In this document: positions 1,099 through 11,418 of the stretch, one piece after another
Position numbering within the stretch: the stretch's first letter is position 1
Layout: every line of letters starts with the position of its first letter
From: a virus
Length of the DNA: 20,942 nucleotides
Virus record (IMG/VR): IMGVR_UViG_3300031608_000062
Coordinates: 1-20,942 of that record
Direction: 5' to 3' (one strand)
Position numbers and translations under genes: made by a program
The notes under the pieces: generated by a model
Databases searched by the model: none
The model's input: only the letters and a program-made list of their open reading frames with translations
What the model was told of the DNA's origin: nothing

Positions 1099-1115
1099 TG
1101 CACACGGGGTGTACA
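1099..1115. promoter_or_regulatory. Imperfect palindrome in the divergent control region, possible operator
   Basis: TGCACAC (1099-1105) is followed by GGG and then GTGTACA (1109-1115). Six of seven arm positions pair, with one C/A mismatch. It lies between the divergent gene starts at 997 and 1188 and about 40 bp before the rightward -7 box. Such a site could bind a dimeric repressor or activator that sets the early/late switch. No terminator-type T run follows it. Confidence 0.3.
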
Positions 1116-1187: not shown

Positions 1188-1454
1188 ATGCCTAATAATA
1201 AGTACGGAGGAAAAGGAAGTGTAAATGTATACTCCAAGACGACGAGTAAGACTAAGTCTAAGACAAAAAACGGTAAAGAGAAGGTAAAGAACAAGTACAA
1301 GAACATTACTACTACGACGGACTCTACTGGAACTACTACATATAAAACAAAGTCTAAGACTAAGAACGGTAAAGAAACAGTGAAGACTAAATTCAAGTTT
1401 AAGCCTAAAGGAAAGGGCAAGACTTTAAGGGAAAGAACTAGATCGAGAGGTTAA
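1188..1454 (+). CDS. Lysine-rich repeat protein, very basic (88 aa)
   Basis: The protein has 24 Lys and 4 Arg against 4 acidic residues, a net charge near +24. It has low complexity and is dominated by Lys-Thr-Ser-Lys alternation. A 17-residue unit is duplicated: residues 22-38 and 54-70 both begin TKSKTKNGKE and continue VK.K.K; the DNA copies are at 1251-1301 and 1347-1397. A Thr-rich linker (TTTTDSTGTTT) separates them, and the C-terminus changes to Arg-rich (RERTRSRG). There is no membrane segment. It is the first gene of the late operon. An alternating-Lys protein like this should bind nucleic acid or an acidic partner, for example condensing or neutralising DNA during packaging, but no known family was recognised. 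The next gene, 13 nt on, is equally acidic. Confidence 0.8.
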   Translation: MPNNKYGGKGSVNVYSKTTSKTKSKTKNGKEKVKNKYKNITTTTDSTGTTTYKTKSKTKNGKETVKTKFKFKPKGKGKTLRERTRSRG

Positions 1455-1467
1455 TAAATACAAAGGG

Positions 1468-1791
1468 ATGAAGAGATATATTGAGACTCCATACGGGGAG
1501 ATATTCCGTGACGAGATGGGTAACTTAACTTTAGAGTATGAGACAGCGGACTTTTCCGAGTTCTCACCTATGGATCCTATAGACGGAGAGATAGACCTGT
1601 GGTTGATAGATAATGATTACATAATACTGGATAGGGATATATACTTTAACGATCCCGTTGTTGAATCTTTGAATTACATATACTTTGATCAGGAGACTCA
1701 GGACTACGAAGAGATTGATGTTCCAGTTAGTTACTCTGACGACATGGATGTTGGTAACTTTATGCTTAAGTATAAATTAGAAAGAGCCTAA
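1468..1791 (+). CDS. Highly acidic small protein of unknown function (107 aa)
   Basis: The protein has 28 Asp/Glu and only 7 Lys/Arg, a net charge near -21, with many Tyr and Ile residues, so it is likely a compact beta-rich or alpha/beta acidic fold. There is no signal peptide or membrane segment. The ATG at 1468 follows AAAGGG, one of the few Shine-Dalgarno-like sites in the window. It lies between the Lys-rich protein and the gene before the terminase, and its TAA overlaps the next ATG (TAATG). The opposite charge of its upstream neighbour suggests that the two may bind each other. Alternatively it could be a DNA mimic. No family was recognised. Confidence 0.85.
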   Translation: MKRYIETPYGEIFRDEMGNLTLEYETADFSEFSPMDPIDGEIDLWLIDNDYIILDRDIYFNDPVVESLNYIYFDQETQDYEEIDVPVSYSDDMDVGNFMLKYKLERA

Positions 1792-2327
1792 TGTATCTAC
1801 TCAAACTAAAGAAAAAAGGGGATAGTGTGATAGCTGAAGACAATGGTCTATTGGCTGTACCAGAATTCCATAAGTTATTAAAGGAAAAGAAGTTGGGCGA
1901 GAAGGCTATGCGTTATGTAGCATTGAGTCAGGACTACGATTCTCCATATAGGTACTTGAATGAGCGAGATCGGAATAGGCAAATCTGCACGGACTTAACA
2001 GGGAAGCCTGAATGGGCTGACACTAAACATCCTTTAATGGTGGCGGCAATTAAGAAGTATGGAGAACTACAAAGGGATCCTTTAGATGACCAGCTCGGAG
2101 CGTTCAACAGGAAGATCGATCAATACACTACACTTATAGATAACTGGTTTTTGGATCAGGAAACTGCTGAAGACTTACAGAAGGTAATGATCGGTATTGA
2201 AAAACTATTAGGTACTCGTACTGTTTTGCTGGAGGCTATTGAGCGTCGTGGTGAACGGAAGGTAATTAGTGGTGAACAGAAACTAAGCTTCCTTGAGAAT
2301 AGAGCTGCTAGACTAAAAGATTCATAA
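1791..2327 (+). CDS. Protein upstream of the large terminase; possible small terminase subunit (178 aa)
   Basis: The gene ends in a TAATG overlap with the large terminase start at 2327 and itself starts in a TAATG overlap at 1791. The N-terminal third contains charged segments (LKLKKKGD, HKLLKEKKLGEKAM). A middle region has Tyr/Arg-rich loops (YRYLNERDRNRQ). Residues about 110-178 are predicted long helices ending in a basic stretch. Small terminase subunits, which recognise DNA for packaging, are usually encoded directly before the large subunit, are about 130-200 residues long and are largely helical, so position, size and composition fit. I could not identify a convincing helix-turn-helix, so the assignment rests mainly on context. 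Confidence 0.6.
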   Translation: MYLLKLKKKGDSVIAEDNGLLAVPEFHKLLKEKKLGEKAMRYVALSQDYDSPYRYLNERDRNRQICTDLTGKPEWADTKHPLMVAAIKKYGELQRDPLDDQLGAFNRKIDQYTTLIDNWFLDQETAEDLQKVMIGIEKLLGTRTVLLEAIERRGERKVISGEQKLSFLENRAARLKDS

Positions 2328-4156
2328 TGGCTGGTAGATTCGACGTACAACAATACAGACCTATACCTAATCACGGACACCCCAAACTCGACACCGATAG
2401 TTTAATCTATCAAGACTATTGGGAGGAGGAGATGAACCGCTGCATTAATGGCTATAAACCTATTGGCGGTGCGTGGATACCTGGGAACTACTACTGGTAT
2501 CTTAACTACTATATGATATTAGGTAACGACGGTACAGACGGGAATCGAAAGACTCTTATCTATCCGTGGTATAGAGATATGGATCTTGAATACTTTATGC
2601 TATTCGACACCTGCCGTAGAGAAGGTAAAGGAATGATCGTAATTAAAGCCCGTGATAAAGGTTTTAGTTATATGAACTCTGGATTAGTTGCTCATGAATT
2701 CACATTCTTTCCGCATTCCGAGGTCGGAATTGCGGCTGGACTAGGGGTTACTGCGAATTCATTTTTTGATAAGGTTAAGAAGGGGCTGATGAACCAACAT
2801 CCTAATTTCAGGCATGGTTGGTTAAAGGATACTAAGGATACATTAAGGGCAGGTTATAAGGAGAAGAACTCTGAAGGTCGGTGGGATATAAGTGGTTATC
2901 AATCTGTGATACACTGTAGAACCATGGATGATCCAGAAGTTTATAAAGGAGAGCGTTTATCTATAATGATTTTTGAGGAGGCTGGTGAATTCAAGAGATT
3001 GAAGAACGCCTACATGTCTTCCAAGGCTTGCTTCATGGATGGATCTAAGCAGTATGGAGTTCCTGTGGTCGGTGGAACAGGTGGGGATATAGATTCTGCC
3101 TCTGCCGATTTTATGGATATGTATTATAATGCTGATGCGTTTAATCTTATTCCTATGTTTATTCCTGCGTCTGTTGCATTACACGGATTCTTTAGTCCTG
3201 TTACTGGAGTAGACGACGAACCAGCGGCTCGTAAATTCATTGAAGACGCTAGAGAAGATATACTAAATGGTGGTGGTGATAGTAAGGCGTATAATTTACA
3301 TATACAAAATTACCCACTAACCATACAGGAGGCGTTCTTAAAGACTAAAGGATCGAGGTTTGACATTGCGTTGCTTAATCAACAAAGAGGCCGTGTGCAA
3401 GACCTGAAGGATCCTGAGCAGCACTTAACGACTGGTCATCTTGATTGGGTAATAGGAGATAAAGGATTAACTCAAGAAGTTAAGTTCACTCCTCATCCTC
3501 ACGGGCCATATAAAATACTACACCACCCTAAACCTCATTTAACTGGATTAGACATAGGTGGTATTGATAGTTATGATCAGGATCAGGCTGGTGCGGCACC
3601 ATCTTTGGGTTGTGCTATGATATTCCGTAGAATAGAGAATACAAACGTACCATATAGGCTTCCTGTTGCAGAATATACAGATAGACCTGAAACTGCTGAC
3701 ATGTTTTTCGAAGGATGTCTGAAATTAGCTGTATATTACAACGCACAAATGCTGGTGGAGTATACTAAGATTGGTATACTAGATTACTTCCTTAGAAATA
3801 AGGCTCAGAGGTACTTGAAGACCAAACCTCGTAGTGCACACTCGCCTGGAACTAAGACGAGAAACAACTACGGTGTTCACATGAATAAGCAAATTAAGTC
3901 ATATATGGAGTCATTGATGTACGATTACATAAAGGAAAAGGCAGACGATATATGGTTTATAGACCTGCTAGACGAGTTATGTGACTGGGGTTCAAGGAAT
4001 ACGGATAGGGCGATTGCATTCGGTTTGTGTCTTATACATGAAAATGATAACTTTGCGATTGAAGTGAAGAATAGAGAAACTGAGTCCATCAAAGAAAGTG
4101 GATTCTCTTATTACAAAAACGATAGTAATGGTACGCCAGTAAAACATAATAGATAA
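2327..4156 (+). CDS. terL: Terminase large subunit, ATPase-nuclease DNA-packaging motor
   Basis: This is the motor that pumps DNA through the portal into the empty head and cuts the concatemer. The ATPase domain shows a Walker A-like loop at residues 107-117 (KARDKGFSYMN), a Walker B with catalytic acid at 212-218 (SIMIFEE), and a coupling motif at 249-254 (GGTGGD). The C-terminal RNase H-like nuclease has acidic residues in the expected order: D409 in GLDIGG, E478 in LVEYT, and D560 in NTDRAIAF. At 609 residues it is a normal full length. The Walker A lacks the classical Gly-Lys-Ser end (it reads KGFS), a variation that is common among terminases. It is translationally coupled to both neighbours by TAATG overlaps. 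Confidence 0.93.
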   Translation: MAGRFDVQQYRPIPNHGHPKLDTDSLIYQDYWEEEMNRCINGYKPIGGAWIPGNYYWYLNYYMILGNDGTDGNRKTLIYPWYRDMDLEYFMLFDTCRREGKGMIVIKARDKGFSYMNSGLVAHEFTFFPHSEVGIAAGLGVTANSFFDKVKKGLMNQHPNFRHGWLKDTKDTLRAGYKEKNSEGRWDISGYQSVIHCRTMDDPEVYKGERLSIMIFEEAGEFKRLKNAYMSSKACFMDGSKQYGVPVVGGTGGDIDSASADFMDMYYNADAFNLIPMFIPASVALHGFFSPVTGVDDEPAARKFIEDAREDILNGGGDSKAYNLHIQNYPLTIQEAFLKTKGSRFDIALLNQQRGRVQDLKDPEQHLTTGHLDWVIGDKGLTQEVKFTPHPHGPYKILHHPKPHLTGLDIGGIDSYDQDQAGAAPSLGCAMIFRRIENTNVPYRLPVAEYTDRPETADMFFEGCLKLAVYYNAQMLVEYTKIGILDYFLRNKAQRYLKTKPRSAHSPGTKTRNNYGVHMNKQIKSYMESLMYDYIKEKADDIWFIDLLDELCDWGSRNTDRAIAFGLCLIHENDNFAIEVKNRETESIKESGFSYYKNDSNGTPVKHNR

Positions 4157-6362: not shown

Positions 6363-7361
6363 ATGGAAGAGACGATGGAACAAAAAGAGACATTAAGCGA
6401 GGAGGTTAGAGAATTTAATCCCGACGCTTTCGCAGGACTTGATAAACTGGTGGATTCGGTAGGACAATCAGAGGAGGCTTCTCCGTTGGTTGAAAACGAA
6501 GAGCCTGAAGTTTTAACAAATGAAACTGAAGAGGAAGATAATTCTGATTTTGATTGGGGAGCTGATGATACTCAAGACGAAGAGGAAGAGCCTGCAAGTG
6601 AAGAACCCGAAGACACTGACGATTGGGATGCTAAGGAAACTGTAACAGAAGATGAAGGCGAAGAGCCTAAGCCTGAAGGAGTTGACTGGGATTCGGTGGC
6701 AAGTGAGCTAGGACTGGAAGGGTCTTCTAAGGATGATATAATAAAAGCCTTAAACTCTAAACGAGAGCCAGAGGTGAAGAATGACACTACGGGTAAGTAC
6801 GAGGGATTCCTTAAACTTTCAGATCGTGAGCTATTAGCTGCCGACATGAAGGCTACTGGAATGGATGAGTACGATGTAGATGACTCGTTAGATAGAATGG
6901 AAGATTCTGGAATGCTCAAGCATGAAGCTCTTAAGATTAGAAAGCAATTAAAAAATGCTATCCGAACTGAGACTACAGCAGCTAGAGAAAAGAAAGAATC
7001 TGAAGCTAAAGGTAAGACAGAAAGCCAAGAGACTGCAAGGAAAGATTTGCAGAACGAACTTAAAGGCTTTAAGAATTACTTAGGTGGAAAAGTAACGGTA
7101 GAACAAAGAAAAGATCTGTATAAGTATATTACGACTGGCGATTTCAATGAGGACATATATAAGTCTCATGCCAATGTTGCGGAGGCAGCGTTCTTGTGGA
7201 AAAACAGAAGTCAAATACAGAATATGTTGAAGTCGCAAGGCTTTGAAGATGGTAAAGGTAGTGTCTTAGACAACCTTTCGAATCGAGGCGGTAGAGGAAA
7301 CAGTAAGCCTAAATATAAGGCAGGATCTGGTTTTGATGCAGCAGCATTTATGGGAGATTAA
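6363..7361 (+). CDS. Acidic head-assembly protein, scaffolding candidate (332 aa)
   Basis: The protein lies between portal and major capsid genes, the usual place for a scaffold. Residues about 36-110 are extremely acidic and probably disordered, and contain three Asp-Trp motifs: FDWGADD (W65), DDWDAKE (W88) and VDWDSVA (W109). The remainder is helical and charged. A long Lys/Glu helix spans about residues 190-245, and a basic C-terminal region (RGGRGNSKPKYK) precedes the final FDAAAFMGD. Scaffolding proteins of other tailed phages are acidic, helical and carry a basic C-terminal coat-binding end, so the overall plan fits. No sequence family was recognised, and an inner head or cargo protein is the main alternative. 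ATG 6375 is an alternative start. Confidence 0.65.
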   Translation: MEETMEQKETLSEEVREFNPDAFAGLDKLVDSVGQSEEASPLVENEEPEVLTNETEEEDNSDFDWGADDTQDEEEEPASEEPEDTDDWDAKETVTEDEGEEPKPEGVDWDSVASELGLEGSSKDDIIKALNSKREPEVKNDTTGKYEGFLKLSDRELLAADMKATGMDEYDVDDSLDRMEDSGMLKHEALKIRKQLKNAIRTETTAAREKKESEAKGKTESQETARKDLQNELKGFKNYLGGKVTVEQRKDLYKYITTGDFNEDIYKSHANVAEAAFLWKNRSQIQNMLKSQGFEDGKGSVLDNLSNRGGRGNSKPKYKAGSGFDAAAFMGD

Positions 7362-10372: not shown

Positions 10373-11002
10373 ATGACTTTAAATGAAATAGTTTATAACA
10401 TTAAGAATCTTGCTGAGGGTGGTTATTCTACTGACGACAGTAAGTTAGACGTACGTCAAATAAAGGCGTGGGTTAATTATCATAGACTAAATATACTTGA
10501 AGCATATACGAATAACGGAAAGAGCATTCCTCAAGGAGCTACTCAGAGTCTAGGTACGTTTTCAGTACCAGATGAAGGATCGTCTCTTAAACTACCTAAA
10601 ATAGCATCCTACGGGGATACTAGAGGTATTACAAGCATCACTTCTGTTGATGGTAACATGATTTTCGCTAGAACAACTCAAGATAAGATAGCATTCCAAG
10701 AGGAGAGTAGATTCACTTCTGCCATGCCTAAGTTTTACTTAGAGGAAGGTATAAGGTTGTTTTTTACTGGACCTGGTGGTGGCGAGCAGGTCAAGATTAT
10801 TGGAGTGCTAGAAGATCCAACTTCGGCTTCTGGCTGGGGAGGAGATGACTCAGAGTATCCATTACCATCACAATTAGTAGGTCCACTAATCGAGGCTGTA
10901 GCTAAGGTTGAGTTAAACTTAACAGTTAAGACTATTGGGGATGTAGTAAATAATGACATGGAGGGAGATAGAGAGGTTCAATCTCAACCACAAGGCAAGT
11001 AA
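10373..11002 (+). CDS. Second head-tail connector / ring protein (209 aa)
   Basis: The N-terminal helices contain the pattern SKLDVRQIKAWVNYHRLNIL (residues about 22-41), and the C-terminal part (residues about 162-203) has YPLPSQLVGPLIEAV followed by NNDMEGD. Both are characteristic of crAss-like tail or connector proteins that assemble as rings under the portal. The middle is beta-rich with Gly-rich loops (GPGGGEQ, SGWGGDDSE). At 209 residues it is close in size to the first ring protein and probably forms a neighbouring ring. The start ATG at 10373 follows the terminator hairpin by 12 nt, and the TAA overlaps the start of the IHF-like gene (TAATG). Confidence 0.75.
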   Translation: MTLNEIVYNIKNLAEGGYSTDDSKLDVRQIKAWVNYHRLNILEAYTNNGKSIPQGATQSLGTFSVPDEGSSLKLPKIASYGDTRGITSITSVDGNMIFARTTQDKIAFQEESRFTSAMPKFYLEEGIRLFFTGPGGGEQVKIIGVLEDPTSASGWGGDDSEYPLPSQLVGPLIEAVAKVELNLTVKTIGDVVNNDMEGDREVQSQPQGK

Positions 11003-11418
11003 TGTCGTACATAACATATAAAGATATTTACAAAAAAATATCGAGAAGAGTAAGGGTAGGTGCGTCTGGTAGAAAGAAGACGAAAGCTATACCTTACTCT
11101 TTGTACTTTAAAGTAGTTACTAAGTTTTTTGAAATCCTAGTTAGGGATTTGATAGTAAGAAAACAGAATATTTCCCTACCTTTGGGTTTAGGAATTCTGT
11201 CGGTGGAGAAGAAAGAGCACAGGAGAGCCTTCCATATACGGAAGGACGTGAAGGAGTCTAAGCTACAGGGAAAACCTGTTAGGTATAAGGTTCCAATTCT
11301 TAATGATTATTACCACAAGATTAAGTGGACTAAACGAAATAAGGATCTGTTCAAAGCTAAACTTTACCCAGCTAAAAAGGTTAGAGAACTATTAAAAAAT
11401 ACATATAATGCAAGTTAG
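11002..11418 (+). CDS. IHF/HU-family DNA-binding protein, phage type (138 aa)
   Basis: HU/IHF proteins bend DNA through a dimer with two beta arms. Here residues about 20-60 are helical (FKVVTKFFEILVRDLI). They are followed by NISLPLGLGILSVEKKEHRR (residues 55-74), which matches the start of the beta-arm region where cellular IHF has the G.F...R pattern. The arm and C-terminal parts are highly basic (HIRKDVKESK, KRNKDLFKAKLYPAKK). At 138 residues it is about 40 longer than cellular HU, and the extra length is a basic tail. An IHF-like gene inside the tail gene block is a known feature of crAss-like phages. The placement suggests packaging or late gene control. It overlaps both neighbours (TAATG upstream, 11 nt downstream). 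Confidence 0.75.
   Translation: MSYITYKDIYKKISRRVRVGASGRKKTKAIPYSLYFKVVTKFFEILVRDLIVRKQNISLPLGLGILSVEKKEHRRAFHIRKDVKESKLQGKPVRYKVPILNDYYHKIKWTKRNKDLFKAKLYPAKKVRELLKNTYNAS

Follow-up and report, generated by a model that had tools for sequence, protein, structure and literature searches.

The head of the late operon

The window analyzed here is the whole 20,942-nucleotide stretch of viral DNA held as IMG/VR record IMGVR_UViG_3300031608_000062. From position 1188 onward, all of its genes lie on the + strand, beginning with an 88-aa lysine-rich protein as the first cistron (1188–1454) and continuing with a 107-aa acidic protein (1468–1791), a 178-aa protein (1791–2327), the terminase large subunit (TerL; 2327–4156), and the portal onward, the last being P22-like (Pfam E-value of 1.4e-14). 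The open reading frames (ORFs) to the left of the promoter (143–523 and 701–997) are on the − strand. A gap of 13 nt separates the 88-aa and 107-aa ORFs, and the acidic gene is joined to the 178-aa gene by a TAATG overlap. Ahead of the first cistron, the late operon has a Bacteroidota-type −7 box, TATATTTG (TAtaTTTG at 1154–1161, + strand), with the ATG 26 nt further on. The box was read directly in the window and is conserved in relatives, where it is TATATTTGC or TATCTTTGC in 16 of the 16 related lineages checked; no −33 TTG is evident for it.

The 88-aa protein contains 28 Lys/Arg against 4 Asp/Glu (net charge of +24; pI 10.6), and the 107-aa protein 28 Asp/Glu against 7 Lys/Arg (net charge of −21; pI 4.1). 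In a pool of 445 gene-sized ORFs (80–130 aa) from the relatives described below, which includes genes of these two types themselves, +0.27 per residue is reached by 0.9% and −0.20 per residue by 0.2%. Both charges are extreme for genes of this size in related phages. When the 88-aa ORF is aligned with a 98-aa homologue (in locus L019), the gaps keep the frame and the differences number 24, 29, and 50 at codon positions 1, 2, and 3, respectively; because of this frame-keeping and the concentration of differences at the third position, the ORF is very likely coding. A first-pass annotation of this DNA had described two adjacent, oppositely charged genes behind a −7 box at the head of a late operon and in front of the packaging genes, and its charge counts, spacing, box, and gene order all hold.

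The TerL of the window is 28–30% identical to annotated TerL proteins of gut crAss-like phages by tblastn, with the top-listed matches belonging to Crassvirales, whereas Flavobacterium phages outside Crassvirales match at ~26%. This protein suggests that the window represents part of the genome of a crAss-like phage. A TerL-alignment scan of genome contigs gave no match and therefore no host genome. The 178-aa protein has no hit in Pfam but is homologous to the 181–189-aa gene before TerL in cr118_1, cr10_1, cr115_1, and FpV4, and because its homologues precede TerL in these phages, we consider it a candidate small terminase subunit (TerS). The homologous pre-TerL gene of gut crAss-like phages (cr118_1 gp70, cr10_1 gp68, and cr115_1 gp25) lies in the same neighborhood, but the gut phages inspected have no recognizable acidic-family or 88-aa homologue beside it.

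For comparison, DNA of relatives was fetched from viral contigs with TerL, the 178-aa gene, and the 88-aa and 107-aa proteins, yielding ~200 loci. Among them are clade A, with TerL 85–100% identical, and its sister, clade B, with TerL at ~65%. In clade A, the promoter is visible in 16 lineages, to which the lineage counts refer. L016, a 23-kb record with TerL 94% identical, is the closest relative that does not belong to the species of the window itself.

A conserved structured element (1074–1127, + strand) lies ~25–80 nt upstream of the promoter box and was found in the window, L016, L017, L020, L024, L025, L029–L038, L043, and L012. In a 15-sequence alignment, 93% of its cells are paired, with compensatory changes, and the covariation is above that of all 500 shuffles and far above that of slid controls. 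The inner hairpin in the window (1100–1114) reads GCACAC-GGG-GTGTAC, with one mismatch and the 3-nt GGG loop inside the closing stem. A covariance model gave one strong match per clade A record covering the region and weaker single matches at the late-operon head in clade B (e.g., L051 at ~1387–1458 and L065 at ~2544–2615). Occurrence once per record argues against a general promoter, and an operator, a non-coding RNA, an origin, and a packaging site are all candidates.

Two further late proteins of the window are strongly charged. A 332-aa protein (6363–7361; net −41), whose gene stands after that of the portal and before the following large structural gene, has a very acidic N-terminal half and is possibly a scaffold. 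A 138-aa protein (11002–11418; net +27) joins the 88-aa protein as a second very basic late product and has no match in Pfam or PHROG.

Lysine-rich ORFs around the terminase genes

At least one lysine-rich ORF lies between the promoter and the acidic gene in 15 of the 16 clade A lineages. These ORFs fall into four mutually unrelated sequence types, namely CKxGCKCKxC peptides of 23–31 aa, KPKxRKPKY peptides of 15–23 aa, CWxGY..VPNCVP peptides of 37–41 aa, and the 88/98-aa type to which the window's first cistron belongs, and they are often chained by TAATG overlaps. The exception is L016, in which there is no lysine-rich ORF at that place, the acidic gene (net −16) begins 60 nt past the promoter box, and no match to the 88-aa protein was found anywhere across the record. 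Since L016 has no such ORF there, the slot would be either dispensable or filled elsewhere.

In clade B, lysine-rich ORFs are found instead in the gap between the 178-aa gene and TerL, which measures 0.2–1.5 kb, with a few longer. At least one is present in 54 of 71 gaps, compared with 23% of random same-length stretches of clade B loci and 3 of 71 gaps read in antisense. Four modules recur in this gap: M1 (KGLYANIHAKRKR), M2 (DACYHKV..SGAMAKCR), M3 (RWFKEDWRTPSG), and M4 (WQRKEGK..GGLNAKGR). Regular expressions for M1–M4 matched inside the gap in 69 of 70 instances among 95 non-redundant loci, and those for the clade A types M5–M7 matched before the 178-aa gene in 19 of 21; as the expressions were composed after the sequences had been seen and the loci are 4–14-kb stretches around the terminase with related rows, these numbers describe location within the neighborhood and are not independent trials. 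Gaps of ~1.5 kb (e.g., in L046, L077, and L085) are crowded with several small lysine-rich genes. Such a packed gap before TerL is comparable to the region between gp16 and gp17 of cyanophages, which an earlier study (PMC3037559) had already identified as a hypothetical-gene hot spot.

A separate element occupies the interval between the lysine-rich ORFs and the acidic gene in L021, L023/L024, L026, and L029–L032, and is absent from the window. By eye, it has acceptor, anticodon-stem, and TTCGAAT T-loop features of a tRNA together with a ~75-nt variable region, and its stems appear to covary; ARAGORN calls no tRNA in it, and a search of Rfam with L021, L023, and L029 returned nothing.

The 88-aa protein, as a small lysine-rich ORF in the terminase neighborhood, belongs to this slot. 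It shares no sequence family with modules M1–M9, so that its kinship with them is one of slot and composition only. No confident hit was obtained in PHROGs (best, phrog_7836, E-value of 0.048) and no match in Pfam or the PDB; tblastn against phage records also gave no match, with the low-complexity filter on, which weakens that negative. Comparison of the loci shows that unrelated, tiny, predicted lysine-rich proteins replace one another in a slot near the terminase genes.

Alternatively, the ORFs might be leader peptides, upstream ORFs whose translation is coupled to that of the terminase genes and whose encoded sequence is unimportant. Many of the clade A ORFs have the appropriate form: they are first cistrons, tiny (15–41 aa), TAATG-chained, fast-changing, and missing in L016. 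However, motifs are conserved within types, lysine-rich type 3 has homologues in other phages, the 88-aa gene evolves in a frame-keeping manner, and clade B holds its lysine-rich ORFs at a different place, all of which make leader peptides an improbable account of the slot.

The acidic protein and the question of a pair

The acidic gene follows a different pattern. It is present in 16 of 16 clade A lineages, and all clade A loci that extend far enough have it immediately ahead of the 178-aa gene, with a net charge of −13 to −21. The same position in clade B is occupied mostly by proteins of 67–103 aa with net charges of about −14 to +8. Genes of this family usually overlap or abut the 178-aa gene, and the TAATG overlap of the window is shared by many relatives from both clades. 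Among the 2,813 ORFs of the full set of loci, a clade A-only HMM of the acidic protein placed eight members of this positional family as the next-ranked sequences, at sub-threshold E-values of 0.0014–0.22, and the similarity between acidic and neutral profiles by hhalign was weak (P of 0.13).

AlphaFold2 models of the acidic protein (pLDDT 82; ββ-α-ββββ) and of a neutral homologue (pLDDT 87), built from separate alignments, have a β-β-α-β core in common. Neither model gave a confident fold match in the PDB or BFVD (acidic, best Foldseek E-values of 0.49 and 0.15 and a second-look Z-score of 6.2; neutral, best BFVD E-value of 0.077 and best Z-score of 7.9). For each model, the entries placed highest by the second-look aligner were permuted forms of ribosomal protein S6, with Z < 8; this points to a similar arrangement in the predicted structures and says nothing about function. 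Ribosomal-protein-S6-like, kinase-lobe, and I-DmoI folds were tied as matches and were not used to assign a function. The acidic sequence itself had no match in Pfam, phage records, or the PDB, and no confident one in PHROGs. Based on the sub-threshold HMM ranking and the shared core of the models, taken together, this protein is probably a diverged, clade-specific member of a family coupled to the 178-aa gene. Because the net charge of this family runs from −21 to about +8 across ~90 distinct relatives, its acidity is probably a trait of the clade and not a device that neutralizes the protein encoded upstream; we hold this with modest confidence, as part of the joint explanation given below.

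This bears on the partnership that the first-pass annotation had proposed, and which it took to fail if related phages carried one gene without the other. Homologues of the 88-aa gene occur in only 2 of the 16 lineages, the window's own and one further lineage (L008, L010, L017, and L019; 98 aa, +29, 55% identical), so that the two genes are neighbors only there and the acidic gene stands without the 88-aa gene in the other 14. A dedicated pair, in which a DNA-condensing polycation is co-expressed with an acidic chaperone that guards against premature binding, would fit the extreme opposite charges, the close spacing, and the common promoter, and it would also fit the constant acidity of the downstream protein in clade A, where some lysine-rich ORF precedes it in all lineages but one. 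That one, L016, nevertheless retains the acidic gene and its charge, members of the family in the large sister clade are neutral to slightly basic, although they stay linked to the 178-aa gene and have strongly basic proteins next door, and only 5 of the 28 invariant residues of the acidic protein are acidic. No charge compensation was detected in clade B between the acidic family and nearby lysine-rich ORFs (Spearman coefficient of +0.22, p = 0.065). Nothing in the comparative record calls for a dedicated basic–acidic complex, and we consider one unlikely.

Two other functions for a small acidic protein are less probable still. As a strongly acidic, small, and folded protein, it might mimic DNA and block a DNA-binding defense protein of the host, but its gene belongs to the late packaging operon, its translation is coupled to that of the 178-aa gene, and relatives found in the same place are neutral; we give this little credence. 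It is very improbable that the genes form a toxin–antitoxin or effector–neutralizer system, with a nucleic-acid-binding effector and an acidic inhibitor: a small basic gene does stand beside a small acidic one, and the acidic gene occurs without the basic but never the reverse, as for an antitoxin, but the genes are ordered and expressed as in a late packaging operon, phages that lack the basic gene still have the acidic family linked to the 178-aa gene and TerL, and searches of Pfam and PHROGs with either protein gave no confident hit to known toxins or antitoxins.

The explanation that we favor, by a modest measure, is that of two functionally separate late genes, the basic product acting on nucleic acid in packaging or in the head and the acidic product acting with the 178-aa protein or the packaging motor. 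The acidic protein would probably assist the TerS candidate or the motor. The 88-aa protein would most likely bind nucleic acid during packaging, or go in with the genome, and would act without its acidic neighbor.

Lysine-rich modules in other phages

The modules found in the terminase neighborhood of the window's relatives also occur in PHROGs 16028, 727, 4689, 14910, and 9737/4359, for which the function is listed as unknown and none of which is matched by the 88-aa protein. By tblastn, the KGLYANIHAKRKR module matched 119 phage records, mostly cyanophages together with pelagiphages and roseophages, and the CWxGY module matched from 243 (E-value of 0.01) to 360 (E-value of 1), mostly cyanophages. 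In T4-like cyanophages, a lysine-rich protein of 340–480 aa (T4-GC_119) carries up to four modules in series. It follows the gp16 TerS and, where gp17 is in view, lies between gp16 and the gp17 TerL. The module-bearing cyanophage proteins between these genes have net charges of +18 to +61 (+58 for Syn33_105). T4-GC_119 (Syn33_105, Syn19_101, and SBM3_00185) thus resembles the slot in being lysine-rich and beside TerS and in stringing together M2, M5, and M4 with an M3-like stretch, but it is a single myovirus protein of a different lineage, whereas the relatives of the window carry separate mini-genes.

A gene of 44–50 aa between the scaffold and capsid genes constitutes the module in the T7-like pelagiphages HTVC168P and Eistla and in roseophage CRP-113, and in P-GSP1 the module gene is two genes ahead of TerS. 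ORF29 of S-SCSM1, three genes before TerL, contains M2, M4, M5, and an M3-like stretch and is annotated "virion protein". CsCl-purified particles of this phage were analyzed by mass spectrometry (PMC9602691), and the label may derive from those data. Modules also occur away from the terminase, in S-RIP1, S-CAM1, Sf-CH1b, S-H9-2, S-CAM9, and CRP-810, and several of these copies are near head or structural genes. By the terms tried, a literature search found no paper, among those covered, that prints the module strings or describes lysine-rich proteins beside the terminase.

The charge of the 88-aa protein, its late expression, and the packaging and head setting of the modules in other marine phages are the grounds on which we infer that it binds nucleic acid and has a place in packaging or in the virion; by the same analogy, it would do the job of the unrelated modules that replace it in relatives. 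Of the first-pass interpretation, what stands is that the genes are real, that they head a late operon in front of the packaging genes, and that the basic protein probably acts on nucleic acid or in packaging, the last now argued from slot and cross-phage company; the partnership is not supported.

More tentatively, unrelated marine tailed phages may share a set of mobile lysine-rich modules that are virion-borne or active in packaging, with the 88-aa protein as the substitute that fills the slot in its own lineage. The phages concerned are crAss-like phages, T4-like cyanophages, and T7-like pelagi-, roseo-, and cyanophages, and the modules lie beside the terminase or between the scaffold and capsid genes. 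This proposal seems to us rather less probable than not. The link to the terminase across lineages is a more interesting result than the pair. A basic–acidic pair would leave the annotation of such genes as before, whereas the wider pattern would alter it for short lysine-rich modules beside packaging and head genes that are now filed under unknown function in phages differing in host, size, and tail. If true, the modules would have a common late role, such as charge neutralization or scaffolding of packaged DNA, which is testable in cultured cyanophages and pelagiphages.

Proteins that neutralize DNA in virus cores, such as the core peptides of adenoviruses, are small, very basic, and late. 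The predicted 88-aa protein resembles them in size, charge, and timing, with no evident sequence relation.

The CW..GY..VPNCVP module (M5) was also found in an archaeal tailed virus, the halovirus HRTV-29, within gp36 (L225, 2815–4371), a protein with a net charge of −100 whose gene sits between the portal and capsid genes. Because it is present inside so acidic a protein, M5 need not act by positive charge.
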